Made by a program: the position numbers and the translations under genes
Shown here: positions 41,091 through 62,853 of the stretch, one piece after another
How positions within the stretch are numbered: position 1 is the first letter of the stretch
How the letters are laid out: every line of letters begins with the position of its first letter
Source of the DNA: Cheilinus undulatus
Taxonomy: Eukaryota > Chordata > Actinopteri > Labriformes > Labridae
DNA length: 64,000 nt
NCBI RefSeq assembly: GCF_018320785.1
Contig: NC_054872.1
Span: forward strand, 39,792,551-39,856,550
Reading direction: 5' to 3'
The notes under the pieces: generated by a model
What the model was told of the DNA's origin: nothing
Database searches by the model: none
The model's input: only the letters and a program-made list of their open reading frames with translations

Positions 41091-41440
41091 ACACATCTGT
41101 GCCTGGGATTTTTGTCATGTTCTGTTGCAACTCTACATTTATCTATAAGCTTGAAGTTTGTGCTGCAGTGAGGTGGTTTAATACGTAGCTAGGAAGTGCT
41201 TTTAATACTTTGGCTATCATAAATGTAGGTGACTAATTTAAGTAAACAAAAGACTTGCAAATATCAGCTTCAAAGATTACCTTTAGATATCATCAAAACT
41301 TCTCTAAAACAAATTTTTATTGATACTTATAGATTAAGACTTGATGAAAACTACAACAACTGCAAGCTGTTGTCCAGCAAAAAGGAGACAAAACTGACTA
41401 TTAGCGTCAGGGAGGCTTTTAATTTTGACCCTGGTGTTAT

Positions 41441-41467
41441 TGTTTTGTTTTGTTTTGTTTTGTTTTG
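41441..41467. repeat. (GTTTT)n short tandem repeat
   Basis: About five GTTTT units followed by a T/G-rich run. Confidence 0.85.
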
Positions 41468-42299
41468 GGTTTTTTTGGGGGGCGGGGTTTGTTTTCTGTG
41501 TGCGAAGTAGAACAATTTAAGCATCCAAATAAAACTAGGATGTTTTCAAAAGCTGTGTTAAAATTCCTTGCTGTGTTTCACACATCTAAACATCTAAATT
41601 GTTCATAGGGAGGCTGTTTTGTCCGGATCTGTACACAAAAGCATAATGGCACACTAGAAAACTTTGAATAATTAAATAGGTATATATTTGTGAAAATTGG
41701 ACAAAAATTATAGAAACCACATAGATCAGCCTGAGCATCTACAGACGTGTCTGCCTCTGAGTCATCCAGCATCCTTTTAAAGGCATCAAATGAGGCCAAG
41801 TCATGAATTTTAGGTCATTTTGTAATACATTTCAGGCAAAGGGAGCAGCAAATTTAAACAAAATGATGATAAACCAATTAACGATAACTGAAATTAATCC
41901 CAGAAAGGTCAATGTCAAGCAGAACTGTGACTGTTAAAATGCAATAAGTAAAAAAAACAATCTGGCTTCATGAAAAAAGCTTGATGTTGTCTTTGCAGGT
42001 TGTTGTTGTTCATGAACAGCGATATTTGTTTAAAAGTAAAGTGCAGCACCCATTTTTCTTTTTATGAAAGCATTTAATGAGAAAAATAGGTCTGAATCAA
42101 AGCAACTGTAGAATTTGAGGAAATTTTAAAAATCAAAATTTCCAGCAAGGGCAACATAAACTTTTATTGTGAAAGGATGAATTAACAGCATTATAGCTCA
42201 GCCTTCAACCTTTGTTCAATTAATACATTTATTTATATCTAATGATTAACATTTTCATATTCTTTATTGGTCTCAAACTGCTCTTTTTAAAATAAACAG

Positions 42300-42752
42300 T
42301 GGCCTACTTCAGGTCTCCATCCATGAAGGACAAAATGACGCATCAGTGAATATCAGGAAACAAGCAGGCAGACTGACAGGATTACTGTCAACATCCCATG
42401 ATGCTTTGTTTTATCAAAATAAGACAACAAAACCTTCGAAAAATGTTAGAAATAAACTAAAATCTCTCTTCAATTTACAGTTGATAAAGTTGAGTGGCTG
42501 CTTTACAGGGATTTTTAGACTTTTAGGACATAAATGAAACAGGCATTGTTTTGGGAAATAAGATGAGGGGCATGGCCTCGCATGCACAATCAAGGCTTTG
42601 AGTCGGCAGGTGACGCGCCCTCCTGCTGAAGAGAGAAGAGGACACACAGGGGAGGGGGACACTCACTCATGTTAAAGACAAAGAAGACAGTACGTCGACA
42701 GAGAAAATAATTTAGAATTGAAAAATAATCATTTAAAATCAGCTCCTGTCAC
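42300..42752 (+). promoter_or_regulatory. 5' flank of receptor copy A, duplicated upstream of copy B
   Basis: Shared blocks with 51270-51675 include GACTGACAGGA, CATGATGCTTTGTTTTAT (TGGTGC in the other copy), GGAAATAAGATGAGGGGC and AAAATCAGCTCCTGT, in order. It has no clear TATA box. Conservation between the copies suggests the promoter was carried in the duplication. Confidence 0.5.
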
Positions 42753-42831
42753 ATGAAAATGGCATTGCTGGATGAAAGAATGCAACTAAGTGCTTTTTTT
42801 CTGCTAACTTTATTTAGCTCTACTTTTCAAG
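42753..42831 (+). CDS. Copy A exon 1, signal peptide
   Basis: MKMALLDERMQLSAFFLLTL then FSSTFQ, hydrophobic after Met10, with donor GTAAGA. Closely matches the copy B signal exon. Confidence 0.82.
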
Positions 42832-45800
42832 GTAAGACAAAACCTTAATTTCTGGAATTGAGTGGGCTCAATGTCTCCTACTTTTCTCTGTTTCTTGACC
42901 ATTTACGTAGAAGTCTTCTTGTTATAGACCAGCAGAAATCTCGAAGTAAAGCTAGGGTTGTGCTTTTTGCTTCTGCTAACTTTTGCCATGACTTATCAAA
43001 CTTTAACAACTCTTCTTTGCTTGCTTTAACAAAAATGTACATTCGGAAGAATTTCGTGTTGAGGGTGAGTGTGGGAATATTGGGACACATTTTGAATTGG
43101 TCTTCTTTTAACTGACTATGAACTTGAAGAAAAGGTCCAACACATAATACATGACTTTAACACTGAAGTTGTGGGCTGTGTACTAGAGAATAGTACCAAA
43201 TTTAGTGTCAAATTTAACACTTTTAAAGAGCATATGTTGGTCAACACATACAGCATTCTTAAACTACACTTGTAAAATGTCCTAAATAATTTAAAATATA
43301 AATAAGCTGCAGTTACTCTGGCAAATCCCATGATTTTAAATTTTAGTGGGCAGAGCTTAGATCAACTGACACTTTACAGAGTGGATGAAATGTTTAACCC
43401 TAAGATATCAACACTCCAATGTTCAACAGCTTCATTCTGGGGCCTTAAAGCTGTAAACAAACAATAGGTTATTTTTTACATTTCAACAGCAAATGTTCAT
43501 GGTTAGTGATGCAATAGCAATAAAGAAGGATGACATTTTTGAGTTAGTAACACTACATACACATCTGAAGATCAAATCAGTGAAAAGTAAGAGGCCCTGC
43601 TTTGTCTTTGGTTCAACAAAAACCAAAGGTTTTAGCACCTTCATCTCTAACTGAGAGATATAGACTCAGCTAAATAAATACTTTCCATCACACATGCTTT
43701 TTCTGAATATTAAACATAAATATAGATCCATACTTGACAGCTGTGCTCCCTGCTTGTTTCTTAATTTCTGGCTGATCTTCTTTTTGGACAGAGAGGCCAT
43801 CAGGTAGCCCAGTGTGCTCCGTCCAGTCTGTGAATAACAACACTGGCCTGCAGTACCTCTGTCAGTGGTCGGGGGGGACTCCACAAGCAAATCTTTATTT
43901 CCCTGTACTCAGCAGCAGCAGCACAGGTTCAGAAAACTTCAGCCTGACTGTCAGTGCTTCAAAAGACCTCGATGGAAAAACTGTCACATGTTTAGCTGAG
44001 CACACAACTGAAAAGAGCAAATGTGACATCACTGCAAGTAAGATCTTTGATGAATTAGTATCAAACTTCAGGACATTTGACTTCTCATTAACCTGTCCTT
44101 TAAAACCTTATTATGTTAAACTTTTTCTTTTCCAGGAAGTCCCAGGAAGTTCCTCCCCTCTCTGAGAACCACGGTCGGCTCTGATGGCAAAATAGTGGTC
44201 AGCATCCACTGTGTCAGTGAAGCGTCTCCTAACGCTGTGGTGTCGTGGTTCAGAGGCAGCCAGGCTGTCACCAACGGGACAGTGCACCAAATCAGCAATG
44301 ACACGACACAAATTCAGATACGTGATAACAACATCAAGAACTTAGTCGCTGAAAGCTACACCTGTACCTGCAGAAACCCCCTGGGCAGCCAGAGGAGAGA
44401 AGTTCAGTTAACAGGTATAAAACCATGAAGTAGCAGTTGTGTAGATTAGTTTTGTGTGAGTCAGTCAAGTCAGTGGATTATTAGGATTTAGACCATTGTT
44501 TCTCTGCTGCCCTGAGCCTTGCCCTTTGCTTTCTGGTGACGTCAGCAAGCCAAGGTCTAGGTGAAGTAGTTTTTGGATCAGGCTTGGGCACCAGAGGGTA
44601 GTTTGTCCAGAAAGGAGGCTAGTGAGGAGCAGAGTGTGTCCAAAGCTTTGTTAACAGAGATCATTGGATCAAGTGTCTAATCTCACTGAAACGATTAAGA
44701 TCAAGTGCTTTGGTTTACATAACCTTCACTTTTCTGAAAATTCATAGACCCTGTTTTAAACAGAAATATTTGAATGTTCACTAATCAAAGATCTAGTATG
44801 CATCAGCCCTACAGTACAGCACAGTGATTATTTAGCCTTCTTGTGCTTATTCTGAGCCCTCAGACATGGAGTTCTCTGTCTACTTTTCTTTTCATTTACC
44901 CCCCTCTCCTGCCATCGCTTGATGTCTCCCTAACTCACAATCCCTCTCTTTCTAGGACCTTCCATCTTGGATGTCAGATCGTCTTCCAATAAAAATGGCA
45001 GGATTGTCAGGTTGACCTGGAAGGTCCCGGATTTCTCTCTTGTGACAGGTAAAACAGATGCTCTTTTATTATCACAAGAATATCTTCAAAGATCACACCC
45101 AGTGATCTTGTTTTGTTTGGGACATCCCAGAAAAAATTCCTCTGGGAAGAAAGTTGACATTGTTGAAAACAGAAACCCAACATAGCAGATAGCGGTGTAA
45201 ATACTGTGTAACATATAGAGCATGTAGCTTAGCATCGCTGTGTTTTAAAAAAAAAAAAAACAAACAAACAATTTCAAGAATGAAAATAGGCTGAAAGGTA
45301 AATATTTTCTGTTGTGCTTCTTCTCTAACCTGACACATCCTAAATTGTAGAAAAACATTGGCAACATTTTTGTATATTAAGGTTGTCAACATTTTCTGTA
45401 CTCCTAAATGTAATGTGTTTCAAAATGCTAAAATCATTTGATTATCATTTTGATAATCTTTTGGATCATAAAGGTAATGAAACTTGGGGATCTTCAGTCA
45501 TAATTTAACCAGAAAAGGGTCTGTCCAAATAGAGCAAATACATTGGCTACATGTTGGAAAAGTGGGTGAAACTGAAAAGGAGTAGGGGCGCACGCCCCTC
45601 AGTACCCAGGTCCACACAGAGCTGGCTGACCTGCTCACAGAGGCATGCTTGATGATGTGCTTGCCATTGTTTGTGGGTGGAACCTGTGTTAAAAATGTAA
45701 AACAAAATATTGATTACAGGTCAAAACAGAAAGAGATAAATTACCCTTACCTTATATCTCATAGAAAATCAGTGTATCTTAAAAATCAAATGCATTGCTC

Positions 45801-46973
45801 ATTGTTTTCCTCGATTGATTTTGTGAAGGATTTGACATCAAGATAAAAAGGACAGCCATCCTCAACGAAACCCGTAATGACACCCAAACTGAAGGCGGCC
45901 CAGACGGGTTTGAAACCATTCTAAAGCTACCTGGCTCTGCCCGGGAGGCTTTCATCAATCTAGACTGGTCTTCGCCTTTGTATGTCACACCCACATTTGG
46001 TATGACTGCAGGAGTGCCATCAGAATTCAACAATAGATGTTCAGGTAAGCTACCTTTTTTGGATTGTGTGAGATATTGTATTTTTTGTTGCAGAGTCAGT
46101 TAAGTTACAGTGCTACAGCAGTAAAATGAGCCCCCCAAGGCAGACATTTTCTGCACACATGGACGCGAGATGTTTCATGCTATGTACAGCCACAAACAGT
46201 TCAAGGAGTGGACGAACACTGTGCACTATGTGTGTGTATGTGTGTGTGTGTGAGTTGAAGACACAAAAACTAGAGGAGACTTGAAAGCATATCTGGATAA
46301 ACAAACAGCTTTCTCTACACTTGTTTCTCTACATTTAATGTCCAGCAGAGTGCCTCTATGGGTGTAAATGATAAAATTTCAGCATATGAGTGTGTGATTT
46401 TGGAGTTTGCACGCCAATCAGACATATCACTAAACAGAAATATAGATCAATAGTGATAATTCATGATTCCCTGCACCCTGTGACTCCCTTTTCTGGCTGT
46501 GATTAATACCTGTGCCCAGGTGCATGTGGTGACATAACAACAGCAGCAATGTTTACATGCCAAATCTTGCCTTACCACAACACACTACAAAAGACATCAA
46601 ACTGGGAAATAGCCTTTCATATTTTCTCCAGGAGTCCGAAACTGCAGCTGCAGTAAACGTTTCATACTCTACAACTTTATTTATCAAAGAGTTAAATTAA
46701 AGAGAGATAAACAGTGTTAACCTTCTGGAAGGTGAACTTAACCCAGAAATGAACCTTCATGGGTCTCTTAGTATGATTATCAGACACTTTCATATTCCTC
46801 TAAACACCATTTTATGAGTTTTCAGGCCTAAGGCATGAGCTTTGGCATTGTTTTTTATCTTTATGGCATTTTGAAAAATTTAATTTCAGCTCATACCCCA
46901 TGCCTATAAAGCACTTTGACCAAAAATCCTGATGCTTGTGTCAGTGTGGATTCTCTGCACGACTCCTTCTATT

Positions 46974-47034
<61 letters not shown>

Positions 47035-49941
47035 CCTTGAGCATCAGAACATAAAAAACACACAATAAATGTTGGGGATTTTTCTTTAGTATTTTTGTGA
47101 AAATTGTAATGTTTACTTTTTCCACCAGATGGTGGCATTTCCCCTATTGTGGTCTATGGGGAAAAACATTGAATTTAAAAAATAATGTCCTATGTGGTGT
47201 TAAAAATTAGTTTTCAAAGTCTTTATCTGGATGTCAGAGCAGGATACAATTGGAAATTAGAATTGTTTTGGAATCAGTGTATCTCTGGTTGAAGTACAAC
47301 AAGGGCACAAAATTGCTTAAACAGAACAAAATTCAAAATTTAGCTTCTTAACTTTGCTCTCAAAGTGCACCACACAGATTTTTTTTTAACCTTAAAATGT
47401 ACAAATCTTTCTCCTGGGGGAGCATGCCTCCAGACCCTCCTAGAAAATTTTGAGTCCCACCCCCCACCATAATAGTCTGCTAAAACCCTGTGGGAAACAT
47501 TGCATTGCTTTTCTCTGTGCTTCCAGGTGATGAGGCGCTTTGCCGAGTCGTCTTTGGAATCGCAGTTGGAATTCCTATAACCGTAGCCTTTCTAATGCTG
47601 GTCGGCCTTCTGTGCATCTTTTGCACCCTTCTGCCTTCTCATTGTTGCAGGAACAGAAGTAAGTGAAGTACAGTTGATTGAGCAATTCAGTCAGTTCTAA
47701 GTTATCTAACACCAAATCACAATACAGGTCATCTGTGCAGTCTGGGACTTAAAGTAACAGCCTCTGCCATTACTGTAAAATGTGATGTGAATGGATGAAT
47801 GAAACATCTATAAAGCTCTTTGAGTGGTCAGAAGTCTAGAAAAATGCATGTATCACCCTCTCTAAATCTTTTTCAACTGAGGCTTTTAGCCTCAATTTAA
47901 AAAAAGTCTTGACTTTACAAAAGAAGAGATCTGCTGATCAAATTTAAAAACATCATCAAAATAAACATCAAGACATATTAAAGCACCTCCAAGAATGTAA
48001 AACAGCTTTAAATAAGATCATTACATGTAAGACGGAAGGGGCACTCCGATTTACAAGGCAAAAATATTATGAAAAAGCAAACCAAGCCAGCCACCTACTA
48101 TCTTTTCAGTTAAAAAAGTAACAGTCAAACCCAAATTAAGACATCCCACCTCTCTAAGGGAGGATTCACACCCAATGGATGTGGCAGTAGCATTTAAAAC
48201 ATTTTACAAAAACCTATATGATACAACAGATGAGGCTCAAAATATGGCAATAATGGAGGAGATGTTTAAAGGGATTAGATTAGCAAAGTTAACTGAGACA
48301 GAGGCGGAGGTTGAAAAAAAACAAATCATTAAAAAACAACAAATCCCCTGGGACTGACAGGTTTCATTGTGATTTTAATAAGGTTTTTGTGAAGGAGCCT
48401 ACACCTGTACTCTGTGAGGTCTTTAATTATGCCTTAAATGAAAATGACCCACCCAGAAGTTGGTCTGAGGCTATTATATCAGTTTTTCATAGAGAAGGAA
48501 AAAGACCTGCTTGAATGTGGCTCTTACAGGCCAGTTAGCTTGCTTGGAAATGACGTCAAGATTCTTAGCTCCATACTATATGTACGCTGTATGTGAGACT
48601 TTGTGTCAAGGAACATGTTTTAATAAATGTTCAAAAAAATAAATAAATAAACATCAAGACTTTTAACTGAGGGATGCAAACAAGCAGGAGGGCCAAGAGT
48701 GCTCACTTCTGACAGCCCAGGCTGACCAGCCACGATGACCTCTTTGTGTCTGTCATTCAGATTCAGAAAATTCAAGGTCATCCATGTTTCAACATCTTAA
48801 GACAGAGGCTGTAGGGTACCCCTATTCTTAAATTTCAAAGGCAAGTAGATTGGACATCATCAGCAAACTTGTAACACCACTTGTAAGTGTGGCCACTTCA
48901 CAGGGGGGAAATTCCCAAGATGAACAGAGAAGGTCCAATCTGTTAAGTAGGACTGAAACTACTCAAATGCAGTCTCCTTGATCATATGTGCAAGGTCACA
49001 TGATCAACAGTGTTAAAGGCAGCAGTTAAGTTGAAAAGTAACAAAATAGCATCTCCCATGTCTACAGTTCAAATCAAATCTCACAAGAGCAGTTTCCTTT
49101 CTATGAGGAGGTTTAAAACCTGACTGAAACTTTTCACGTAAGTCATGATGAGTTAAAAAAAATCCTGCAACTGGAACAAGACATTTTCCCCAGTGCTTTA
49201 AACAGAAGAGGCAGTTTAAGGATTGGCCTGATGTCTGTGTATGTATCTTATTCTCCTTGTAATTTCAGGACAGAGTTAAGACAAATTCCCCTACACAGAC
49301 ATTAAAGTACATGTAAGCTTATCTTAGGAATGCCAAGAAATAATAGTTAAAAATTGTGATTTTCATTCATTTAGCAAACTTTACTAACTAGGTTTTGATT
49401 CTGGTTGATAATGATAAACATAGCATTGTGGTTAAGTTGTTTTACAGGGGGACAAATGTGTTTTTCACCATCATTACAAGTTTTTCACATTTTGTTTTTG
49501 CTTTTTAGGTCGACAGACTTCTGTTTCCAGACCTATTGAAGACAATAATTACAAGGTAATATAATATACTGTAAATGTTAGCTGAGAGCTGATAAAAGAA
49601 AAAACAACAAACCCTTCTTATCCTCCATCAGATATGAAAATATCTCTGCCTGAAGTCGATGGTTTTAGCTTCTTTCTCATCACTCACAGGTAATAACAAT
49701 CCAGATAGATTCAACTCCTCATATCCTAACAGGACAGCTGAAAGAGCCACCACCAAACTACAACCAGTTATATCCGGTACGCTTTCTTAAAACCACATCT
49801 GAAATAAGGACTGCTTCTTTGGTCATTTCAATGATTTGCCTTGTTTGTGTTTCATTGCAGACTCCCTCTGAAAGATCAGTGGCTCTCCCGCCTGCCCCCC
49901 TCTACCACCCATCAGAGCCGCAACACCCGTCTAAAATTTGA
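42753..49941 (+). CDS. VSIG10L-like Ig/FN3 transmembrane receptor, copy A, 9 exons
   Basis: Predicted type I cell-surface protein of 419 residues. Exons: 42753-42831, 43792-44037, 44136-44414, 44956-45048, 45829-46044, 47527-47658, 49509-49555, 49690-49776, 49861-49941. Order: signal peptide (1-26; Met10 could also start a good signal), Ig C2-like domain with four Cys (27-108), second C2 domain with Cys pair IHC/YTC (109-201), FN3 split over two exons (202-304), transmembrane helix near 310-340, and a cytoplasmic tail with PPPNYNQL. Ig, FN3 and membrane exons are phase 1-1, as usual in Ig genes. AATAAA follows at 50024. Naming rests on domain order and on ETFB as neighbour. An L1 fragment lies in the intron after the membrane exon. 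A CEACAM-like family member is the alternative. Confidence 0.8.
43792..44037 (+). CDS. Copy A exon 2, Ig C2-like domain
   Basis: 82 codons including SPVCSVQSVNNNTGLQYLCQ, SENFSLTVSAS and TVTCLAEH. Four cysteines allow two disulfides. Nearly identical to copy B 57003-57248. Confidence 0.85.
44136..44414 (+). CDS. Copy A exon 3, Ig C2 domain
   Basis: 93 codons including IVVSIHCVSEASPNAVVSWF, NGTVHQISND and YTCTCRNPLGSQ. Standard Cys-Trp-Cys pattern with N-glycosylation sequons. Confidence 0.87.
44956..45048 (+). CDS. Copy A exon 4, first half of FN3
   Basis: 31 codons, GPSILDVRSSSNKNGRIVRL then TWKVPDFSLVTG. Trp of the FN3 B strand is present. Confidence 0.8.
45829..46044 (+). CDS. Copy A exon 5, second half of FN3, diverged
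   Basis: 72 codons from FDIKIKRTAILNETRN to EFNNRCS. Where copy B has YRFRVIPKAR, this copy has SPLYVTPTFGM, so the usual Tyr-containing F-strand motif is lost. The frame is open and splice sites are good. Confidence 0.78.
46976..47031. repeat. (TA)n microsatellite
   Basis: Perfect TA array from 46979 to 47031, about 26 units, in the receptor A intron. Confidence 0.97.
47527..47658 (+). CDS. Copy A exon 6, transmembrane segment
   Basis: 44 codons with VVFGIAVGIPITVAFLMLVG followed by LLCIFCTLL, ending SHCCRNR. Cys near the membrane may be palmitoylated. Confidence 0.85.
47890..48650 (+). pseudogene. L1-type LINE reverse transcriptase fragment
   Basis: Translation gives FKTFYKNLYDT, SLKNNKSPGTDRFHCDF, EVFNYALNENDPPRSWSEAI and, after a frameshift, CGSYRPVSLLGNDVKIL. 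These are the classic L1 reverse transcriptase start blocks in order. Frameshifts and stops break it and both ends of the ORF are missing. It ends in an AAATAAATAAATAAA tract. It lies in the receptor A intron between the membrane and tail exons. Confidence 0.85.
48651..49250. repeat. Old interspersed repeat, unclassified
   Basis: Blocks such as TGATCAACAGTGTTAAAGGC, TTTAAAACCTGACTGAAACT and AAGGATTGGCCTGATG recall a repeat common in fish genomes. I cannot name its family. No ORF survives. Confidence 0.4.
49509..49555 (+). CDS. Copy A exon 7, cytoplasmic tail
   Basis: Encodes RQTSVSRPIEDNNYK, close to RQTRYPVSRAVEK in copy B. Confidence 0.8.
49690..49776 (+). CDS. Copy A exon 8, cytoplasmic tail
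   Basis: Encodes VITIQIDSTPHILTGQLKEP and PPNYNQLYP. The YNQL motif and preceding prolines are shared with copy B. Confidence 0.82.
49861..49941 (+). CDS. Copy A terminal exon
   Basis: Encodes TPSERSVALPPAPLYHPSEP to SKI and TGA. The first nine residues are identical to copy B. Confidence 0.82.
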   Translation, partial: TPSERSVALPPAPLYHPSEPQHPSKI

Positions 49942-50023
49942 TTTTGCATGCATTTCATTATTTTATACTCTAGAGTTTTGCGTTTTATTTGAATGAGACC
50001 TCTAGATTTGTACCACAGTTTTA

Positions 50024-50029
50024 AATAAA
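50024..50029 (+). terminator. Polyadenylation signal of receptor copy A
   Basis: AATAAA 83 bp after the stop codon of copy A. Confidence 0.6.
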
Positions 50030-50049
50030 ATAATTTATTCCTAAGAAGA

Positions 50050-51675
50050 AAATTGCTGCAAGGGATGGAGTTTTAAGTTGCAGATCATAAGGGAAAGTAA
50101 GTGTATTTATCCAAGATAAGCATATTTTAATAGTGTCTGTAAAAACTCCTGAGAATGCATGGATGCATCCTACATTTCCTCAGGTTGTTTTGGTTGAAGT
50201 AATGCACACCTTGCCCTCTAGAGGGCAGCGAAGCTGTAGCTAGCTAAAAGAAATAAACAGTACATGAAGACTACCTGTGTACTATCAGTTCTTCTGCCAA
50301 ACATCATGATTTATTCATTTTGTTTTATGCTGTTTTACCATTTAGTAATCCTCTATTTCACATATCTGATATTTTATATTTACCTTACTGTTTATTGCTT
50401 GAGGTAAAGTTGTGGAGCTTTTTTTGGAGCTTGAAATCAGTTGAATGTCCAAGGATCCTTGCCAGGGTATTTTTTAACACAATCTGACTATTTTGATGCT
50501 GTTATGTTAATTACTGAATTACTGAAATAATGAAATAATGAATAGCTCAGATTTGATGAACACCTTTGCCTACACTTTGAGGCTCCTTAGCATGAGGCCT
50601 ACTTTTGTCTAAGGGTGAGACTGCCTATGGATGGTAACTGAGGCCTCCTGTAACCATTAGCAGTGGCGAACTGGGGGTATTAACAGGTCAAAAACTCTCA
50701 TGATTAAAATTGTCAGTATTTTGAAAGTATATCTAAATCTAGAACCATGCATTTTGCTTTTTATACACTTAAAAAAAGAATATGGCCAATTGTAAACGTT
50801 TACTATAAATTCACACCCTATCCATAGTGTGTAAATTAAAAAATATATATCAGTTTCTGTATGTTTCTAGGCAGAAGATGCAAATTTGTTTGATCTTCAG
50901 TACAGTGTATTATGGCTGTGAGAACCATGGCATTTAAAATAAATTGTTTTGGCTGTAAAGAAAGCGTTTTTAAAAGCTGGAGCTGCATCATTTTCCCAGC
51001 ATTGTGTACAGATTTGTTGAAGTTTTAAATCTAAACTTGTATTCAGATTGCTTGAAAATAGCGCATGCTACTTCCTAATGAGCAAATAAACCAAACCCTG
51101 GACCCTCTTAAGTTTGAGCTTATAGCCCCGGATATCAAACACTTCTAGCTCTGTCCCGTTTTCAACCTTGTTTCAGTTAATTTACGATGTAGTTTTCTAC
51201 AGGTTTAAAATAAATATCCTCACACTGTCCTTTTTATTCACTAATTATTTATATATAATAAACAATACTTCAAGTCTCCAAGCATGACGGACAAAGTGAG
51301 GATTAATAATTATCAGAAAATTAGCGGTGGACTGACAGGACAACTGTCTACATCGCATGGTGCTTTGTTTTATTAAAATAAGATAACGGGACTTTAGAAA
51401 TAGTATTGTTTTTAAAACCTCTCTTCATATGCCCCTTTAAAGGTATTTTTGCCTTCTTAGGACACAAATAAAGCAGGCACTGTTCTGTGAAATAAGATGA
51501 GGGGCGCGGCCTCACGTGCACAACCAAAGCCGGCACAGGTGAGCTACTCACGCGCCCTGCTGACAGTGGGCAGACTGCTGGAGAGAGGAGAGGAGGATAC
51601 ACAGGCAAGGACAGCAATTTAAAATCAGCTCCTGTACTCTGACGAACAATTCGTCTGTCGCTCTGTCTCACTAAA
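50050..51675. other. Region between receptor copies A and B
   Basis: No gene was found. 50212-50250 (CCCTCTAGAGGGCAGCGAAG) aligns with the 3' flank of copy B near 62970, marking the duplicated unit's end. From about 51270 the promoter flank of copy B begins. Confidence 0.6.
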
Positions 51676-51748
51676 ATGACGTGGCTTCATGAAAATAAGC
51701 GATTAAACGCTATTTTTCTGCTAACTTTATTTGCCTCTGCTTTTCAAG
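51676..51748 (+). CDS. vsig10l: Copy B exon 1, signal peptide
   Basis: MTWLHENKRLNAIFLLTLFA then SAFQ, donor GTAAGA. LLTLF and the TTTTCAAG end are shared with copy A. Confidence 0.83.
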
Positions 51749-54700
51749 GTAAGATATACGCCTCATATCTGGGTTTAAGTGAGATAAACGTCTCCTATTG
51801 TGCTTTGTGTTGTTTAGGATGAATTTAGGTATATTGGGGATCTTCTGAATGTTTATCTTCCATTAGCTCTCATGCTATGAACTTGAGAAAAGGTCCAACA
51901 CGTTTCTGTAACACCGTCAAAGATAGGGTTATCTATTTCAAGAGAAAGGAAAATTCCATCTGTTATTAAGAGGAATTGCCAACACTTTTGAGGAAACTGG
52001 TGTAATATTTTTCTGGTAATATTCAGTTGGTTGGGACACAGTTAAATACTGATGAAGGCTATTTTAAGCCTCATATAAGATACTGTATGCCACTGAGGCA
52101 AAGCCAGGTTCCTGTATTATAACAAGCTGTATTGTGAAAATAGACAAGATTTTATGCAACATTTTAATGCAAGCTAGCAGCAAGCAAAAAGGCAAAATCC
52201 AGGGTTTCCATCACTGTTTCGTAGTTATTAAAGGGTCTCGCTTTAGATGTTTGGAACCACTTATTAGGAGAATAACAAGCAAACACAAATGTTTTTTAAT
52301 TCAATGTTGATAATTTTATTCATATGATAAAGATTTTAGTGCTGTCCCAAATTAGTCAAAATGATGCTGTCCCATTCACCTATGCCATATTTGGCTGGAT
52401 GGGACATTATTAAAGCAACCTTAATGCAAAAATAAACATGGACATGAACATTTTTTAATGGTTTTGCTGCAGAACTACATCCGTTTAAAGCTAGATCCTT
52501 GCTCCATCCACTAATAATTCCCATGAATAAGGTTCTGTAATTTTTATGATGTTATATCTCAGCTAGAGTTTTGGGGTTAAACAGTTTACATCCTCATTTA
52601 TTAAGGAAATTGGGAAAACCATCCCATTTTGTTTACCTGTCCCAATCAAGCTGAATTTACCCTGTCCCATTACAGCATTTGTCACAAATACCCATTAATA
52701 ACAGAGTTTTAAGACATGTTATTTCCTCTTTAATTTCCCTTCTCCACACTGATAGGTGCACACTCTCAGCTGACTGTCTCTCCTGCTGGTCCCACTCTGG
52801 TGAATGCCATTGCTGGCAGAAATGTGACTCTGGCTGTGTCCTTCACTGGGGCCTCTGACCCTGCAGTTGCTTGGTCCATGATAAACCAGCAGAACAATCT
52901 ACAGGTTGTCACATGGGTTATAAACTCAACTTTTCCTCCAGACATCCCAGAAAGCAGAAGGAATGTGCTGAAGCTTGAGCAAGATGGATCTCTTACATTT
53001 ATGAAGGTGCCACTGGAATACACCACTAACTACACCTTTGAAATCACAAAGTCTGGAGTGGGAAGAGTCTCGACTACCTTTATTCTGAGGGTATTTGGTA
53101 AGTTCCTGGGCAAGCTGTGAATATGATGGTTTATTGTTGTAGAACTCTGGATTTATGGCTTCTTAAAATTATACATTTTCATACTGCATCTTTTTGCTTT
53201 GTATTTTTGAGCACACTGGTGCAAAATTGGAAAACAATAGCTGAATTTTGTATTGTGGGATCAGGGCTAAAATATCCACATATCAACATCATGCCATTTT
53301 GATATGACACGATATGACAGAGCTGCAGTAACTCTGCAAAATCTGTGTCAAGATGGATTTCCTCTGGCAAGAACAAAGCAGAGGGTCAACCATATTGCAC
53401 AGCATTGCATACAGATGAAGAATATGTCCTATGTATCTTTTAGGAGCACCTAAAGTCACAGTTGGGTGCTCTAACTCGGTGGATAACTTTACTCATGGTG
53501 CAAATGTATCTCACATCAAAAACAACAACAATCCACTGGAAACATGAGGGGAAGAACCCCAACAAGGGTCCCTGCACAACAGGCAACATTCAACCACATC
53601 TTAACATTCTGCCCAAGGGCATGATGGGAAACTCCACCCACATATCACAGCAGATTGAAATCACAGTGGTCAAACCTTTGATCGATCGACTCTTTCAGAA
53701 GTTGATCTAACACTGGTGGAGCAATGCTGTCTATAACTCCATAACAGACAACCATTTCTCTCAGTTAAAGGTACACTTTGGGAGTTAAGATCACCTCTGA
53801 AATTTTTAACCCTGGGATATCAACACTCCAGTTTCTGCTGTTTTGGGATGTGATGCAGAGTCATTCTCTCAATGCGCTACTGTGTTGTCAAAAGAGCTGG
53901 AAAAAGTACAAGAGTGTTAACCTGACACACCAGATGGATTTGTTTCACACATCCATCTGGGAAAGCTTCAATCGGAAACGTTTGAAAAAAGGCAGAGGCT
54001 TTGAAAAAAACTCGGAGTATGATTGGGTGAACGTTCTGTCTGTCACATCTCTATGGGCCAATCAGAGCAACAAAACACGTGACGTAGCAGTTATCAAGCT
54101 GCGTGTGCGCAGCTACTGACAAATAACGCGACACATGGCGACTACAGACATGTAAGTACTTGACTTTTGTCGTTTTTGAAAGGAAAACATCTCACTGCTG
54201 ATCTTTGTTCTTCTTTTAACGAAGAAATGTCGTCAAGTTCTGATAGAACTGGCGCTTTAGCAGCATCCACGCCAATCTCTTCCTCCATAACTGCACCAGC
54301 TCTTGCTGCTGCTTGTTTACGTCAGGACTCTGCTGTGCCTAAAAGTACTGCCCCTTGTCGCTGATTGGTCCTGTCACTTTCTTACCGGGCCCAAACGGTT
54401 CAGATGGGAGCTTTGCGAGATAAATTCGCCAGTGAAAAACAAGGAAACGGGCGTATCCACCTGCTTTGCAAGGTTACAAGAGTATTGTACTCAGGTGAAA
54501 GTACAGTGACTCTGGTTGGAGCTTACTTAAGAAGAAGTGAAAGTACTAATTTCAAAATGTACAAAAAAATGTGCAAGTACCCAAAAAGCTACTCATATTC
54601 AGTAATTTGAGTAAATGTAATTAGTTACTTTCCACCCTCTGGTTACCCTGTAATTTCCTCTAGATACTGTAAATATTACATCGTGTCTACAAAATAGAGA

Positions 54701-57700
54701 TGGAGTTTGAAAAGAGTTTGTCTAAACTGTGAAGACAATTCACATGTAATGGACTTATGAAATATTTTTGGGAAACATTAAGAAGATGTTTAAGGAGGAC
54801 ATCCTCTTCAGAGTACATAGATTCAAACAATGATTTGGCATTATTCATCAGAAATCCTTTAACTGTTATTAGGAATTCAGGCATTGCAGTTTCTTTATAT
54901 TGAGTGAGAGCATAAAGAAAAATAGGAAACGTGATAATCTCAAGATGATGCCTTACTGTTTTCTGATGTCTACAGGAACCATCCATAAACCAGTTACACA
55001 GTTGTCGCTTCAGTCCTGAGTAACATGGGTTAAAAAAGGCAAAATAAATTACTTTGGCATCTTTCATGTAGAGTTGTTCTGATCCATGTTCCTCTATTGG
55101 TGCCAGATATCAACAAGAAGTTAATTCACCAATCTGACACATTAACCAGCTAGCCATTAAATATAAGACAAAGTCAATATGTGACAGTAACCAAACTAGA
55201 ATTTTGATTCTATCAGTAAGAGCACTGTTGGAAAGAAAGCAAAAACCTTAGCAGCTACAAATATTATGCATCTTTTTAATTTCAGCATTGTCTGAAGGTT
55301 TACTGTTATTTTTCAAAACCAATGTTGAATTATTCAGAGGGAGAAAACTTCATTTGTACATCTCAGCTTTTCTGTATAAGAAAATGAGTGCATTTAGTAG
55401 GTAAACTGGGCAATTGGGTTTTCCCCCACACTCTAATTTTTAGACATTTCTGGTCTCTCTTCTGCTGTCCTATGAAAAAAAAACCCTCAAAATTAATTTT
55501 TATGGTAAATTAGGTAAATAACATCATGGCTTATGTTGTTAATTCTGCTGTCCTCTCACACCATGTCCTCTTCCCTCACAGAAATCATCCAGAATGTGAC
55601 TCTCAGTGCAGATAGAGATCCGGTCATTGAGGGGACCGATCGCTTCACACTGGAGTACAACATGCTGCAGGGAGTGGTTGAGCAGCAGACATGGCTCTTC
55701 AATGGCAGAGAGATAAAAACTAATTCACACTACTCTGCAGTGAACAACAGTCTTGTTATTTGGGGTCCGACCAGAGGAGACACAGGGCAGTACTCGGTGC
55801 TACTGACCAATCCCTTCAGTAATGTGACAACTCACATCAACATCAGAGTTCTGTGTAAGTCTAAAATAATTTTTGCAGGCTTTATCTTTTGCATTTTTTC
55901 CTTGTTTGATTTTTGTTGTTGTCTGTAATAGATGGACCAGATGAACCCAAGGTCGTGGCCCATCCTGCTCAGCCATTCTACGTCTCAGGAGACTCTCTGA
56001 ACCTCTCCTGTCAGGGCGAGGGGTTCCCAAAGCCAGTTGCTCAGTGGCTCTTTGGTGGTCAGAACATTTCAGGCTCAGAAGTCCTAAATCTGACAAATGT
56101 ACGGACTACTCAAGGAGGTGTTTATACATGCAGGCTGCTTAATGAGCAGACCAAGAAAGAGCAGCAGAAGAACATCACTTTAAATATTTATAGTAAGTAG
56201 AAAGCCGGGGTGTTCTTCATGGGGATATGCCAAAGGATTTTTTAATCAATTTGTTGATTGATTTTTTTTCTTTTTATTTATACCAAAATTTTAATGAATC
56301 AACCAAATTATTGAAGCAAAACAAGTGGAAACAAAATCAAAGAAGCAAAATAGATTTATAGAAACATCTTACAAAATTACACAGGAGGTCACTGGAAGTT
56401 GTCCATTAAGCAGAAATGTCACAGGTTGCAATTTGAAGGTCAGTGGGTTTTTAAGTCTCTGCTTTGACCAACCTTTTTATCTCCTTTTTAAAAGATCTTT
56501 TTGTAAAAAAATCCAAAAATGTCTCTGTATACTCCCCAACCTTCTTCCATACATGTTTGTAAAACATGTAGAGGCATTACAGTCAGTGCAGCCCTGTGCA
56601 GCTGTAAAAGCTAAAAATAGCCGCATGAATGCTTTTCCTCCCACACATTTTTCTGAATATTAAATATGAACTCGAAAAGCACTCAGAGAGCACAGACCTC
56701 CGCCATTAGCCCTATCTCCCAATAGTAAAGAATCCTTTAAAAAATTCCTGGATCCAGACGGTGATCCAGATCACTCCCAAAATCTAATCAGTTCTTCCTT
56801 ATGCCATTTCTGACATTTCCTGAAAATTTCAGGAAAATCCGTCCATAACGATTTGCATTATGTTGCAAACAAACAAACCAACAAACTAGCAAAACCTGCC
56901 GAGCACATAACCTCCTTGGCGGAGGTAATAATATAGGTCCATTATTAATAACTGAGCAGTCTGCTTGTTTCTTAATTTCTGACTGATCTTCTTTTTGAAC
57001 AGAGAGGCCATCAGGTAGCCCGGTGTGCTCTGTCCAGTCTGTGAATAACAACAATGGCCTGCAGTACCTCTGCCAGTGGTCAGGGGGGACTCCACAAGCA
57101 AATCTTTATTTCCCTGTGCTCAGCAATAGCAGCAGTGGATCAGAAAACTTCAGCCTGACTGTCAGTGCTTCAGAAAACCTTGATGGAAAAACTGTCACAT
57201 GTTTAGCTGAGCACCCAATTGAAAAGAATAAATGCAACATCACTGCAAGTAAGGTTAAGAACTTTCACGAATTATTTTATAACAAAGGGACTTGTGAATT
57301 CTCATTAACCTGTCCTTTAAAACCTCATAATGCTGAAGTTTTCTTTCCCAGGCAGTCCCAGGAAGTTCCTCCCCTCTGTGAGAACCATGGTTGGCTCTGA
57401 GGGCAAAATAGTGGTAAGCATCCACTGCGTCAGTGAGGCGTCTCCTAAAGCTGTGGTGTCGTGGTTCAGAGGCAGCCAGGGTGTCACCAACGGGACGACA
57501 CACCAGATCAGCAATGACACATCACAAATCCAGACACGTGATTTCAACGTCAGCAACTTAATCTCTGAAAACTACACCTGTACCAGCAGAAACCCCCTGG
57601 GCAGCCAGAGGAGAGAAGTTCAGTTAACAGGTATAAAACCATGAAGCAGAGGTGGAATTTGCTAGCCGTCAAATGTATTTTGCCCATCAGCAATAAGATA

Positions 57701-60700
57701 GATTATTTCCATAATGTTTTAGTAAATTTAACTATTTAATTTTTCTCCACAATAAGGATTTATTCTAAGGTGAACATGAAAAATTTTAAACCAATACAGA
57801 GCAATTATTTTGCTGAAGAGCACAACTTTCATTAGAATCAGGAAGAGAAGAGGGACAGGAGAAACAACAAAAAAACAACTTGAGACAAATTTATAGCAGA
57901 CCCGTAAAGTAAACGGAAAGAATCCATGAAGTTTTATGAAAAAGTTACAATACTTTATAATGTATTAAAATTATGAGAACTCCATCTCAGATTTTTGTTT
58001 GTTTTTTAGAGTAGCCCAAATATAATTTCATACAATTCAATTAGAGAGCGTTCTGATTTTAAAGGATCATTCATATGCTCTAGCTTTATGATTAAAATAC
58101 TGCTGATAGATAATAACCTGTTACCCTGAATGGGATAACTATTAATTAATTTAGTATTTGTATAATCAATTAAACAGTTACCTCCTGATTTGTCCTATCA
58201 ACAGTGAGGATTTCTCTCCTCATATCCTTTATTATCCAGTGCATTTATCTGTTTTTACTTTGTGTTTGGGTCCTTTTTAAGTCACAACATGAAACTTTGA
58301 GAAGTGCTGGGATACGCTTTTGAATTTAAGGTTAGCATCTTTGACGTCTGCTTATATATGAAAAATCAGGAGCTCCTTTTTTTACTGATATCATCCATTT
58401 TCTCACTTAACCAATTTAGAGGGAGTTCTTTGATTTAAGTAACTTTTAAGTAACCACTTTTCTTTGTTTATTTCCATATTAAATATGAATTAACAAAGAC
58501 ACTTTTTCATTAGAAATATTTTAACAGGCTCTTAATACTTACTCATCAGAATATGTGGTATCCATCAGCCCTACAGTACAGTACTGTGATTATTTTTGCC
58601 TTCTTGTAACCCCTCTGGGCTCTGCTAGCATTACCTAAAATAACTGGCCCTTTAGACACAGAGTTAAGTATGCCTATGCCTACTTTCCCTTTAAACAAAG
58701 CTCTCCAGTCTTGGTGTACTCTCGCCCCCCTGGCCTTCTCTTGATCTCTCCCTCACTCCCAATCCCTCTCTTTCCAGGACCATCCATCTCAGATTCCAGT
58801 TTGTTCCCTAATCAAGATGGAACCATCGTCACGTTGACCTGGGAGGTCCCGCCTTACTCTCTCGTTACAGGTAAAAAAAGACATTAACAAACGCTCTGCA
58901 GAACTCCTGGTTGGGTTATTCTATTATCACAAGAATGTTTTTAAAGATCACACCCAACCGTCTTGTTTTGAATTTGACGTCTCAGCAGAAAGCGGACCGT
59001 GTTGAAAACAGAAACTCAGCTCAGCAGATAGGGGCGTAAATATTGTGTAATATGTAGACTCTGTAGGTCAGCACCACTGTGTTTTGCAAAATAGATGGTA
59101 GAGTTTATTGAAATGTAAATGTTTTGCTGTTATGTTTCTTTTGTCATTTTCTGAATTCATAATCCAGCTTGACCATAATATGATCAGTCTTAATAAGACA
59201 TCTAGAGCTGCACTGAGAGCTGTATCATACCACAACAACAAAAATAGGAGTCCTAGACACCCAATGCTGGGATTTTTTTGTCTCCAGTTGTCACAAATTT
59301 GCAGACAGACTCACACAGTGTCTGAATTGTACAAAAACACTGACAACATTTCTGTATATTACTGTTGTCAAATTTGTCTTTACTCTTAAATGCATTGCAC
59401 TTCAAAATGATAACATCTCCACTATTTAGATGATCTGTTGTTTGAAAAAAGTTAATGAAACTTGAGTACAATTTGCACGGGAGTACACCGCGTTCCAAAT
59501 TATTATGCAAATGATATTTTTCTCCGATTTTCCTAAAGAGTCGATGCAAATGACGGTCAGTATAATTTTCAAGTCATCAACCATTAGAGCATAATTAAGA
59601 TGTTATTGAACAAACCTCCAAATGATAAATATTTTCTTTAAAAAGAACAAAACAAAATAAAACAAACTCAAAATGCACTGTTCCAAATTATTATGCACAA
59701 CAGAGTTTCAAAACATTTTATAGGTTGTAAAGAACTGAAAATGGTCATTTGTTGAATTTGCAGTATTAGGAGGTCATATTTACCGAAATCAAAAGCTATT
59801 TCAATCAAAAACATCTTAACAGGCCAAGTTACATGTTAACAAAGTACCTCTTCTTTGATATCACCTTCACTATTTTTGCATCTATTGATCTTGTGAGTTT
59901 TTGAAGAGTTTCTGCTGGAATTTCTTCGCTCTAAACGTTCTTAACGGGGTTAAGGTCAGGGGAAGATGGGGGCCACACCATGAGTTTCTCTCCTTTTGTG
60001 TGTTGTCATGCATGAAGATAATTTTGCTGCGGAAGGCACAGTTCTTCTTTTTGTACCATGGAAGAAAGTGGTCAGTCAGAAATTCTGTATACTTTGGGGA
60101 GGTCTTTTTCATACCTTCAGGGACCCTAAAAGGGCCTACCAGCTCCATCTCCTTATGATGAGTAGGTTTATGCACAACTGCAAACATCTGGAGGATCCTA
60201 CACCTTGAGGTTCGTGGGACTCCAGAGGCACCAGCAGCTTCAAATACCTGTTTGCTGCTTCGTAATGGCATTTTAGTAGCTTATCTCTTAATCTGATGAA
60301 TTTGTCTGGCAGAAACCTTCCTCATTGTGCCTTTATGTGCATGAGACAGTCTTGCTCTGAATCAGCCACAGATTTCTTCACAGTACAATGATCACACTTA
60401 ATTTCTTATGTTTTCATACCTTGTCCAAGGCATTGCACTATTTGATGCTTTGATGCAGCAGAGAGATCCTTTTTCTTTCCCATATTGCTTGAAACCTGTG
60501 GCCTGCTTCATAATGTGGAACAGGATCACCTGGCAAGCTAATTATCACAGGTGTCAGAGTTTGATTTCAGCGATCCAAAGAGCCGGTGCAGTGCATTCGC
60601 ACAGGATAAGAGAAGTCTATATGTACAGGAAAACATCAGCAGCAATGAAAAGGCACAATACTTTTTTATTTCTAAATTCTATACAAAAATGCAGTGTTGT

Positions 60701-62671
60701 TTACATTATGTTTTATAGGGGACGTTTCCCTCATTTAGCTTATACAAATGCTGTTTTTGAAAATATTTTTTATTAGCTGTACATATGCACTAAACAATCT
60801 CTCCTTGCTCTCCCATTTTGCATTGATGTCACGTCATTTACCTGTGTGTATCTGCAGGAAGAGGACTCAAAAAGAGCGAATTAACATCCCTAATGTTACT
60901 GCATAAGAGAGTGAGACGTCTCATGTTAAATATGAACTGCTCTTGTAAAACGTTTTCTGCAGTTGACGCTGTTGATGTTATTCTGCACCCTATTAATTTG
61001 AGATCATTACACACCAAAAACAAAACCAAAAACATAAATTGTTTTATGCATGAAATGCTCAGCTAAATAATACTGATACAAGATCAGGCACAGTAGACAA
61101 GAAGCTGCAGGAGGCAGAGGAGAAGTGCTGTACGAGAGGCAATGCTTGATGCTGTGCTTGTAAATGTTAGTGGGTGGAACAGGTGGAACACTTAAAACTA
61201 AGTGTTGTGCTTAAGAAAACACAACTTGCCTTACTAAACAATGAAATCAGAATAAGAGACTATCTTCACCCTTTATCTCACTGAAAATAAAACAGTATAG
61301 CTTAAAAATCTTGTGTATTTTGCCATTGTTTGACTCAGTAAATTTTGTGAAGGGTTTGATATCCAGATGAAAGGACCAGACCTCCTGAGTGAAAACCAAA
61401 ATGGCACAAGAACTAAAGGAAACTCAGACAGATTTAAAACCATTCAGCAGAAACCTGGCCCTGCCCGGAGTGCCGACATCTTCGTCCTCGATCCCAAGTT
61501 GACCTACAGGTTTCGGGTAATCCCTAAAGCTCGTTTGACTGAAGGAGAGCCATCAGAAGTCCACAGGATCGGTCCAGGTAAGGTCAATTCCTGGATTACG
61601 TGAGAAGGAGTGTTATTTTATTTTAGGGTCAGTTATGGTGCCACAGCCTTAAAACAAGACCATACTGCTTGTCTTTGTCATACCAGGTGAAGGGCTGAGT
61701 GGTCCGGCTATTGCTGGAATTGCAGCAGGAATTCCCTGCAGCATCCTCTTCCTGATCCTGCTGGCTGTCTTGATCTACCTCTGTGTCGACTGGCACAGAA
61801 AGAGAAGTAAGTGAAGCATACTTGTTGGATCAGTTCAGTCAATTCTAGTTTAACTGGCACCACATCACAGTTGAAGAAATCTGATACTGTCTGGGACTTA
61901 ATACTAAGGCTTCTGCCATCAGTGTGTGAATGTGGTGCGAATGGATGTGAGTAGTCAGCAGTCTATGCAAGTTTAAGTCTGTTTACTATTCATGGCACCT
62001 AATTTAAGCCTTTTTCACATGTGGTTACCTGGGAACTTCTGGTAGTAGGCAATAATCATGCAGGACAAACATGAACTTGATGTTTTCACTCTAGTTGATC
62101 ATTATAAATGTAGCGTTATGGTTAAGTGGTTGTAAAGGATGGCAAGTGTATTTTTCACTACCAGTAGCAGTTTTAACATTTTAATTTTGTTTTGTAGGTC
62201 GACAGACCAGATATCCTGTTTCCAGAGCTGTTGAAAAGGTAATAAAATAAATGTTAGTGAATTTTCAGAGTGGTTGTGCTGTTTATAGTTGATAAATAGC
62301 TTACTGAGAAAATTAAACAACATAATTGTCATACCATCCTTCAGATAAAGTGTATCTTATTCCTTATATTTCACAGATATATACATGAGGTTGATGGTTT
62401 TAGCTTTTTCTTGTCACAGGCAATAACAACCCAGATAGATTCAACTCCCCAGAACCTGCTGACAGGAAGGCTGAAGTCCCCACCAGACTACAACAAATTA
62501 AATCTGGTATTCTTTCTTTAAAACCATACCTTTAATAAGGACTACTTCTTTGATAACCTACATCAAATTATTTCCCTTGTTCGTGTTTTATTTCAGACTC
62601 CCTCTGAAAGATCAGTGGCTCTCCCATCCTTCGTCCCTCCACCACCAACCAGAGTCGCTACAACTGTCTAA
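51676..62671 (+). CDS. vsig10l: VSIG10L-like Ig/FN3 transmembrane receptor, copy B, 12 exons
   Basis: Predicted type I membrane protein of 704 residues. Exons: 51676-51748, 52756-53097, 55582-55854, 55932-56192, 57003-57248, 57352-57630, 58778-58870, 61353-61577, 61687-61806, 62198-62238, 62420-62506, 62597-62671; all junctions keep phase. Order: signal peptide (1-24), V-set-like domain without the Cys pair (25-138), second Ig-like domain also without it (139-229), C2 domain with LSC/YTC (230-316), four-Cys C2-like domain (317-398), C2 domain (399-491), FN3 with YRFRVIPKAR (492-597), transmembrane helix (about 605-632), tail with PPDYNKL. Many N-glycosylation sequons fit an extracellular adhesion role. 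ETFB neighbourhood supports VSIG10L; the Cys-less N-domain also recalls CEACAMs. A stop-containing extra exon may lie at 53444. Confidence 0.82.
52756..53097 (+). CDS. vsig10l: Copy B exon 2, Cys-less V-set-like domain
   Basis: 114 codons: QLTVSPAGPTLVNAIAGRNV, VAWSMINQ, NVLKLEQDGSLTFMKVPLEY, TFEITKSG. Both canonical Cys positions hold other residues (TLAVSF and YTFEI). Trp is kept. Confidence 0.83.
53444..53712 (+). pseudogene. Possible degenerate or alternative exon after the V-set exon
   Basis: CTTTTAG at 53437-53443 is a good acceptor and the phase-1 frame reads APKVTVGCSNSVDNFTHGAN, then TGA at 53545. Another frame stays open to 53710. It may be a decayed Ig exon, or an alternative last exon giving a short secreted form. 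The main transcript model skips it. Confidence 0.35.
53919..54479 (+). repeat. 561-bp dispersed repeat with CCAAT, ATG and splice-donor module, copy 2
   Basis: Matches 28794-29351 over its full length with scattered substitutions. It keeps GGGCCAATCAGAGCAACAAA, ATGGCGACTACAGAC and the ATGTAAGT donor at about 54151. The ETGALAAST-like frame reads RTGALAASTPISSSITAPAL but meets TGA at 54362. It lies in sense orientation in receptor B's third-exon intron. Confidence 0.8.
55582..55854 (+). CDS. vsig10l: Copy B exon 3, Cys-less Ig-like domain
   Basis: 91 codons: IIQNVTLSADRDPVIEGTDR, TWLFNGREIK, GPTRGDTGQYSVLLTNPFSN. Ig fold motif DTGQYSV is clear but the Cys pair is absent (LEY and YSV). Confidence 0.82.
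55932..56192 (+). CDS. vsig10l: Copy B exon 4, Ig C2 domain
   Basis: 87 codons: YGPDEPKVVAHPAQPFYVSG, LNLSCQGEGFPKPVAQWLF, GGVYTCRLLNEQ. Canonical Cys-Trp-Cys. No counterpart in copy A. Confidence 0.86.
57003..57248 (+). CDS. vsig10l: Copy B exon 5, four-Cys Ig C2-like domain
   Basis: 82 codons: SPVCSVQSVNNNNGLQYLCQ, GSENFSLTVSASENLDGK, TVTCLAEHP. Counterpart of copy A exon 2, with matching intron 3' end. Confidence 0.86.
57352..57630 (+). CDS. vsig10l: Copy B exon 6, Ig C2 domain
   Basis: 93 codons: KIVVSIHCVSEASPKAVVSW, FRGSQGVTNGT, ENYTCTSRNPLGSQRREVQL. Counterpart of copy A exon 3. Confidence 0.88.
58778..58870 (+). CDS. vsig10l: Copy B exon 7, first half of FN3
   Basis: 31 codons, GPSISDSSLFPNQDGTIVTL then TWEVPPYSLVTG. 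Confidence 0.84.
59484..60570 (-). mobile_element. Degenerate Tc1/mariner-like transposon
   Basis: The left end has CGTTCCAAATTATTATGCAA, repeated in direct form near 59683. Minus-strand translation contains DHFLPWYKKKN and SKIIFMHDN, the block around the second catalytic Asp, but the PDLNPIE block has decayed to LTLTPLRT and the first catalytic block is gone. The right terminal repeat was not found, so that end is approximate. It lies in the receptor B FN3 intron. Confidence 0.7.
61353..61577 (+). CDS. vsig10l: Copy B exon 8, second half of FN3
   Basis: 75 codons, FDIQMKGPDLLSENQNGTRT to LTYRFRVIPKARLTEGEPSE. A regular FN3 end. Confidence 0.85.
61687..61806 (+). CDS. vsig10l: Copy B exon 9, transmembrane segment
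   Basis: 40 codons with AIAGIAAGIPCSILFLILLA then VLIYLCVDWHRKR: a helix followed by a basic stop-transfer cluster. Confidence 0.87.
62198..62238 (+). CDS. vsig10l: Copy B exon 10, cytoplasmic tail
   Basis: Encodes RQTRYPVSRAVEK with a split first Ser codon; donor GTAATA as in copy A. Confidence 0.8.
62420..62506 (+). CDS. vsig10l: Copy B exon 11, cytoplasmic tail
   Basis: Encodes AITTQIDSTPQNLLTGRLKS and PPDYNKLNL. Shares QIDSTP, LTG and YN-x-L with copy A. Confidence 0.83.
62597..62671 (+). CDS. vsig10l: Copy B terminal exon
   Basis: Encodes TPSERSVALPSFVPPPPTRV then ATTV and TAA. Proline-rich end, slightly shorter than copy A. Confidence 0.82.
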   Translation, partial: TPSERSVALPSFVPPPPTRVATTV

Positions 62672-62847
62672 ATCTGATTTGATGTTTGATAAATTATATT
62701 CTCTGTTTTGGTGTTTTATTTTAATGAGATTTCTATATTTTTACCAGTTTCAACTACTAGTTTGGTGTCATATTTATTTAAACTTTATCACTTTCCCTGA
62801 TGATCTATATCTTATTACTCCATCATTTTACAAGACTATTTATTCAT

Positions 62848-62853
62848 AATAAA
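62848..62853 (+). terminator. Polyadenylation signal of receptor copy B
   Basis: AATAAA about 180 bp after the stop of copy B, the first such hexamer downstream that I noticed. Confidence 0.5.

Follow-up and report, generated by a model that had tools for sequence, protein, structure and literature searches.

Two receptor genes of unequal length stand head to tail in a stretch of the Cheilinus undulatus genome (NCBI RefSeq assembly GCF_018320785.1, contig NC_054872.1, positions 39,792,551 to 39,856,550 of the forward strand), and the question they raise is whether the shorter gene, copy A, lost outer domains that the longer one, copy B, has retained, or whether B gained them, and what has since become of A. 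The whole stretch that was analysed, 64,000 nucleotides, is called the window here. We consider it probable, at about 0.68, that a VSIG10L-type gene was duplicated in tandem beside etfb, and that A later lost three immunoglobulin (Ig) exons, V, Ig2 and Ig3, while B kept the full layout. Tandem duplication accompanied by domain loss is real at this locus and well formed, and no publication on this tandem pair turned up in the part of the literature search results that was covered.

Gene models were built from splice sites in one frame, with exon lengths checked, and gave the two copies and the exons listed below, where SP is the signal peptide, TM the membrane segment, C1 to C3 the tail and aa amino acids.

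42305-42891, + strand: 5' flank, signal exon and start of intron 1 of A, matching B 51266-51808
42753-49941, + strand: copy A, a short VSIG10L-like gene of 9 coding exons with a 419-aa open frame, laid out SP-Ig4-Ig5-FN3-TM-tail
42753-42831, + strand: A SP exon
43792-44037, + strand: A Ig4 exon
44136-44414, + strand: A Ig5 exon
44956-45048, + strand: A FN3a exon, with no Pfam fn3 match
45829-46044, + strand: A FN3b exon, 9 bp shorter than B FN3b, with no Pfam fn3 match
47527-47658, + strand: A TM exon
49509-49555, 49690-49776 and 49861-49941, + strand: A tail exons C1, C2 and C3, with PPNY and YNQL motifs
51676-62671, + strand: copy B, a long VSIG10L-like gene of 12 coding exons with a 704-aa open frame, laid out SP-V-Ig2-Ig3-Ig4-Ig5-FN3-TM-tail
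51676-51748, + strand: B SP exon
52756-53097, + strand: B V exon, V-set-like and found only in B, 342 bp, phase 1-1, no cysteines
55582-55854, + strand: B Ig2 exon, only in B, 273 bp, phase 1-1, no cysteines
55932-56192, + strand: B Ig3 exon, only in B, 261 bp, phase 1-1
57003-57248, + strand: B Ig4 exon
57352-57630, + strand: B Ig5 exon
58778-58870 and 61353-61577, + strand: B FN3a and FN3b exons, Pfam fn3 E 4e-5, 24.2 bits against a cut-off of 25
61687-61806, + strand: B TM exon
62198-62238, 62420-62506 and 62597-62671, + strand: B tail exons C1, C2 and C3, with PPDY and YNKL motifs

The sequence-only reading of this DNA had described a tandem receptor duplication, and pairwise alignment agrees: the copies are head-to-tail paralogs, collinear from 42305/51266 to 50148/62892 and matching on the + strand except for one short inverted match. 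The signal, Ig4, Ig5, FN3, membrane and tail exons that it had assigned to both copies are common to both in the models and the alignment, with the exon counts corrected to two for FN3 and three for the tail, and the models likewise give the two-Ig short form beside a five-Ig long form that it had proposed. Introns are GT-AG throughout in both copies, and each model runs in one frame to a single terminal stop. Signal, Ig, FN3 and membrane exons all end in phase 1, the lengths of V, Ig2 and Ig3 are multiples of three, and because the Ig exons start and end in phase 1, splicing the signal exon of A straight to Ig4 keeps the frame. Pfam gave Ig matches for four of the five B Ig exons; Ig4 had none and is called Ig from its position, size and cysteines. 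The B V exon scored 21.6 bits against V-set (cut-off 26) and 24.5 bits against I-set (cut-off 23.7), and B has no cysteine before residue 256, which lies past V and Ig2. Searched genome-wide (1.17 Gb), the Ig5 exon had 2 matches out of 52 candidates that were scored.

That A is without the three N-terminal Ig exons had also been claimed, and across 124 kb V, Ig2 and Ig3 found matches only in B (tblastn, E 0.05; the same search missed the diverged FN3b of A). A looser search of 40000-51250 with these exons gave best E values of 0.055 (tblastn) and 0.028 (blastn), both outside intron 1 of A, and the best match inside that intron, at E 1.6, is no credible remnant. The intron does contain three short blocks that align with B.

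43057-43143, + strand: block in A intron 1 matching B intron 1 at 51811-51901, upstream of V; 45.5 bits
43386-43418, + strand: block in A intron 1 matching B intron 2 at 53798-53830, between V and Ig2; 47.3 bits
43674-43717, + strand: block in A intron 1 matching B intron 4 at 56625-56667, between Ig3 and Ig4; 36.5 bits

These blocks keep the order of B, and their scores exceed both the best of 100 shuffles (31.9 bits) and the best of 29 control comparisons (29.2 bits), the controls being 28 segments of the window plus the B region in reverse complement. The alignment thus finds real homology in the first introns, a point on which the sequence-only reading had staked its case; it had cited four matching intronic blocks. 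Its pair 43116-43140/51876-51903 overlaps the first block above, 43395-43430/53806-53840 overlaps the second, and 44805-44860/58555-58610 is real, at 44780-44844/58541-58607 (85% of 67 positions); the remaining pair, 43305-43330/53318-53350, is collinear but, at 29.2 bits, not significant alone. Intron 1 of A thus contains sequence that in B flanks V on either side, as well as sequence lying beyond Ig3, and this takes no fewer than two distinct changes in length.

The same intron blocks had been taken to point to a loss in A, and here the argument fails although its conclusion is favoured: deletion or insertion would leave the same pattern, so that the introns alone give no direction. What favours loss in A is that B matches both the VSIG10L2 layout and the CEA domain order. 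Rodent VSIG10L2 is predicted (UniProt, AlphaFold) to have five Ig domains, one FN3 and one membrane segment (PMC12409954), which is the layout of B, counting Ig4 without its Pfam match and the FN3 just under the cut-off. The V-Ig2-Ig3 portion of B aligns collinearly with domains one to three of human CEA (1e07); the whole-sequence E of 2e-42 is summed over three stretches, the best in-order stretch scores 62.9 bits, and the alignment starts at query residue 45, leaving part of V uncovered. A two-Ig ancestor from which B acquired V, Ig2 and Ig3 through exon insertion would fit the intron blocks equally well, as insertions into the first intron of B, but at least two insertions would have had to rebuild both the human CEA order and a VSIG10L2-type layout of five Ig plus FN3, and we regard such a gain as unlikely.

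Under loss in A, a VSIG10L-type gene beside etfb, with a signal peptide, five Ig domains, an FN3, a membrane segment and a short PPxY tail, would have undergone tandem duplication in the ancestry of this fish. B would have retained the full layout, while V, Ig2 and Ig3 would have been removed from A in what were probably two or more deletions within its present first intron. With the signal-to-Ig4 splice in frame, A, if translated, would yield a shorter type I membrane protein with two Ig domains, a degraded FN3, a membrane segment and the tail.

Repetitive sequence also lies within the introns of the pair. One member of a dispersed repeat (28793-29355 and 53917-54481, 89% identical) sits in the B intron between V and Ig2, and self-comparison of the window lists no copy of it in A. 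Frames at 59882-60280 (- strand) in a B intron and at 48073-48357 (+ strand) in an A intron look by eye like transposon remnants and have no Pfam match.

Is A still a working gene, or is it decaying? The exon lengths of A and B differ by 6 (SP), 9 (FN3b), 12 (TM), 6 (C1) and 6 (C3), all multiples of three, the SP value depending on the ATG chosen. Neutral decay was simulated with a divergence of 0.15 and a frameshift rate of 0.006 per base, values that we took from non-coding sequence, its divergence and its indels, with splice sites left out. At a branch divergence (K) of 0.15, the full frame of A was open without a frameshift in none of 5000 runs, and the frame minus Ig4 and Ig5 in 4 of 5000 (0.0008), so that, at this divergence, neutral decay would usually have broken a frame that in A is intact. 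Within Ig4-Ig5 there is a signal of purifying selection (19/117 synonymous vs 30/408 nonsynonymous differences, p 0.006), pairwise tests of this kind assigning change to neither A nor B specifically.

The same two exons lie in a block of higher similarity between the copies.

43719-44433, + strand: Ig4-Ig5 block of A, 87.8% identical to B 56930-57649

Synonymous difference was 19/117 in Ig4-Ig5 vs 48/140 elsewhere (p 0.001) when the TM exon, which aligns poorly, was excluded; with it the figure for the rest is 69/171, which widens the gap. Non-coding difference was 33/189 in the block vs 508/1862 elsewhere (p 0.003), and synonymous and non-coding difference combined was 52/306 vs 556/2002 (p 5e-5). 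This low divergence suggests an old gene conversion between A and B. The 3' edge of the block is at 44433/57649, where the alignment ends; its 5' edge is blurred by a stretch found only in B, 56671-56929, which has no second copy within 124 kb.

B is probably of VSIG10L type, given its adjacency to etfb and its layout. The pair sits between etfb (electron transfer flavoprotein beta), directly upstream of A on the + strand at about 35.5-37.9 kb (one 54-aa piece tested, matching PDB 2a1t at E 6e-26; other exons by eye), and lim2, downstream of B (one 61-aa piece tested, matching PDB 9cbv at E 2e-30). Cattle VSIG10L likewise adjoins ETFB (PMC12071107), and the likeness of B to this family lies in that adjacency, shared with cattle VSIG10L, and in the five Ig domains, FN3 and membrane segment of the VSIG10L2 prediction. 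A itself fails the five-Ig layout, having two Ig exons, one of them seen by Pfam, and an FN3 that is unrecognised; it would belong to the family through common descent with B.

The pair could instead be of the CEACAM family, in which case the duplication and the exon loss would be unaffected and only the name would be wrong. Human CEA is the best solved-structure match of B, whose first three domains follow the CEA order, and B has the N-terminal IgV-like domain without a cysteine pair that marks CEACAM proteins (CEA, CEACAM1), A having no V domain. In CEACAM IgV domains a salt bridge replaces the disulphide (PMC4079198); in the alignment with CEA an Arg is kept in B and, as we read it, the CEA Asp faces a Tyr. 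Against a CEACAM identity, B has an FN3 near the Pfam cut-off whereas CEA proteins are reported as IgV plus IgC-like domains (PMC4079198), and a pattern scan for immunoreceptor tyrosine-based inhibitory or activation motifs (ITIM, ITAM) found none in the tail, the sole ITIM-like hit falling within the B membrane segment. The etfb adjacency, moreover, is shared with cattle VSIG10L as reported. Of the CEACAM neighbours, grik5 and atp1a3 were unrecognised in the flanks read here, while ethe1 is listed in salmonid etfb-lim2 blocks (PMC10029227). With its FN3 and a tail free of ITIM and ITAM, the pair was not named CEACAM, an identity that we keep as a rival and think rather unlikely.

Several observations weigh against the favoured account of the pair. 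The name was given from position and layout. Gene order differs from that reported in cattle, where ETFB separates LIM2 from VSIG10L (PMC12071107); here the pair lies between etfb and lim2. The block etfb-lim2-ffar2a is known in fish, with ethe1 among the genes listed for salmonids, and another etfb-containing block includes a trout gene annotated as ceacam6 (PMC10029227), so that position is no clean exclusion of a CEACAM type and these listings can be read in favour of one. Our confidence is reduced because of the cattle LIM2 placement and the presence of ethe1 and the ceacam6-annotated gene in fish etfb blocks. The domain listing in one review gives human VSIG10L with IgC2 and without an IgV domain (PMC9520664), a mild mismatch with the weak V-set hit of B, and the two Ig domains of A differ further from the family layout.

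As for selection, the simulated frame stayed open more often at a branch K of 0.05, in fractions of 0.012 (full frame) and 0.079 (minus Ig4 and Ig5). Outside Ig4-Ig5 there is no significant purifying selection (48/140 synonymous vs 119/433 nonsynonymous, p 0.13, TM exon excluded), FN3b of A differs as much as the adjacent introns (75/216 vs 74/264, p 0.14), and in A Pfam finds no FN3 and one Ig only, Ig5. The FN3 of A is degraded and evolving at about the neutral rate, a feature that the sequence-only reading had passed over, as it had the unusual likeness of Ig4-Ig5. It is accordingly possible, and we hold it as a tentative alternative, that A is a decaying pseudogene in which exon loss abolished function and drift followed, its frame surviving either through chance or because B converted its Ig4-Ig5. 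The FN3 unseen by Pfam, coding divergence in FN3b and TM no lower than in neighbouring introns (TM aligning poorly), the lack of significant purifying selection beyond Ig4-Ig5, and an Ig4-Ig5 block that may have been refreshed through conversion all fit such decay. It is harder to square with nine of nine exons bearing GT-AG sites in one frame with a single stop, with exon length differences in multiples of three, with simulations at K 0.10-0.15 in which the full frame seldom came through open and free of frameshifts, and with the PPxY and YxxL motifs retained in the tail.

In both tails the tyrosine of a PPxY is also the first residue of a YxxL (PPNYNQL in A, PPDYNKL in B), and motifs of these kinds could bind WW-domain proteins or sorting adaptors. 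The outer domains of B may serve in the adhesion of epithelial or sensory cells. If expressed, A, with its stem and tail, could compete for tail partners or for side-by-side partners, but should not bind V-domain ligands; or else it may be losing its function. A more specific proposal, that A is an expressed, functional short receptor in which the B stem and PPxY tail are selected, acting as an antagonist of B through tail partners or cis pairing, with Ig4-Ig5 matched by conversion for pairing, appears doubtful to us.

The sequence-only reading had raised a decoy role, and this is poorly supported. A shortened sibling of B that keeps a membrane anchor and tail has the general form of a decoy, and CEACAM receptor/decoy pairs resemble A and B: they too are paralogous genes that bear traces of gene conversion, and one member has been altered (PMC13278318). 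In those pairs, however, the decoy as reported keeps the ligand-binding N domain, and conversion falls there, while A lost that domain and its similar block is Ig4-Ig5; V-Ig2-Ig3, the seat of CEACAM-type ligand binding, is absent from A. Because its outer V domain is gone, A is unlikely to act as a decoy, and we rate a decoy for the ligand of B as very improbable and did not adopt it. A better fit for A would be a modulator that keeps the tail, or a gene in slow decay.

Little is understood about the adhesion-type proteins VSIG10L, reported in oesophageal and squamous epithelium (PMC9520664), and VSIG10L2, reported in vestibular hair cells (PMC12409954). A linked copy with its outer three domains naturally deleted indicates which part can go without a break in the frame, and A offers a comparison for what stem and tail do alone. 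Otherwise the history is routine, a duplication followed by domain loss, and a fairly ordinary case.

The survey of neighbouring genes covered 124 kb, part of which was identified, and added the following in flanking segments L004, L005 and L006.

L004 1493-1708, 6689-6925 and 7008-7217: exons of lim2 (lens fibre membrane intrinsic protein), the first tested and the rest by eye
L004 9073-9999, - strand: open frame of a rhodopsin-family G-protein-coupled receptor, from Pfam
L005 5727-6062, - strand: siglec-like exon, Ig-like by eye
L006 1942-2379, - strand: siglec-like Ig exon, best match myelin-associated glycoprotein (MAG)

The receptor frame beyond lim2 is perhaps a free fatty acid receptor (ffar), a label taken from its position and appearance. 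Long frames at L006 3299-8056 (- strand) look by eye like pieces of a retrotransposon polyprotein, and within the window an inverted repeat pair at 16147-16753 and 26731-27268 is 81-86% identical, with arms about 10 kb apart.

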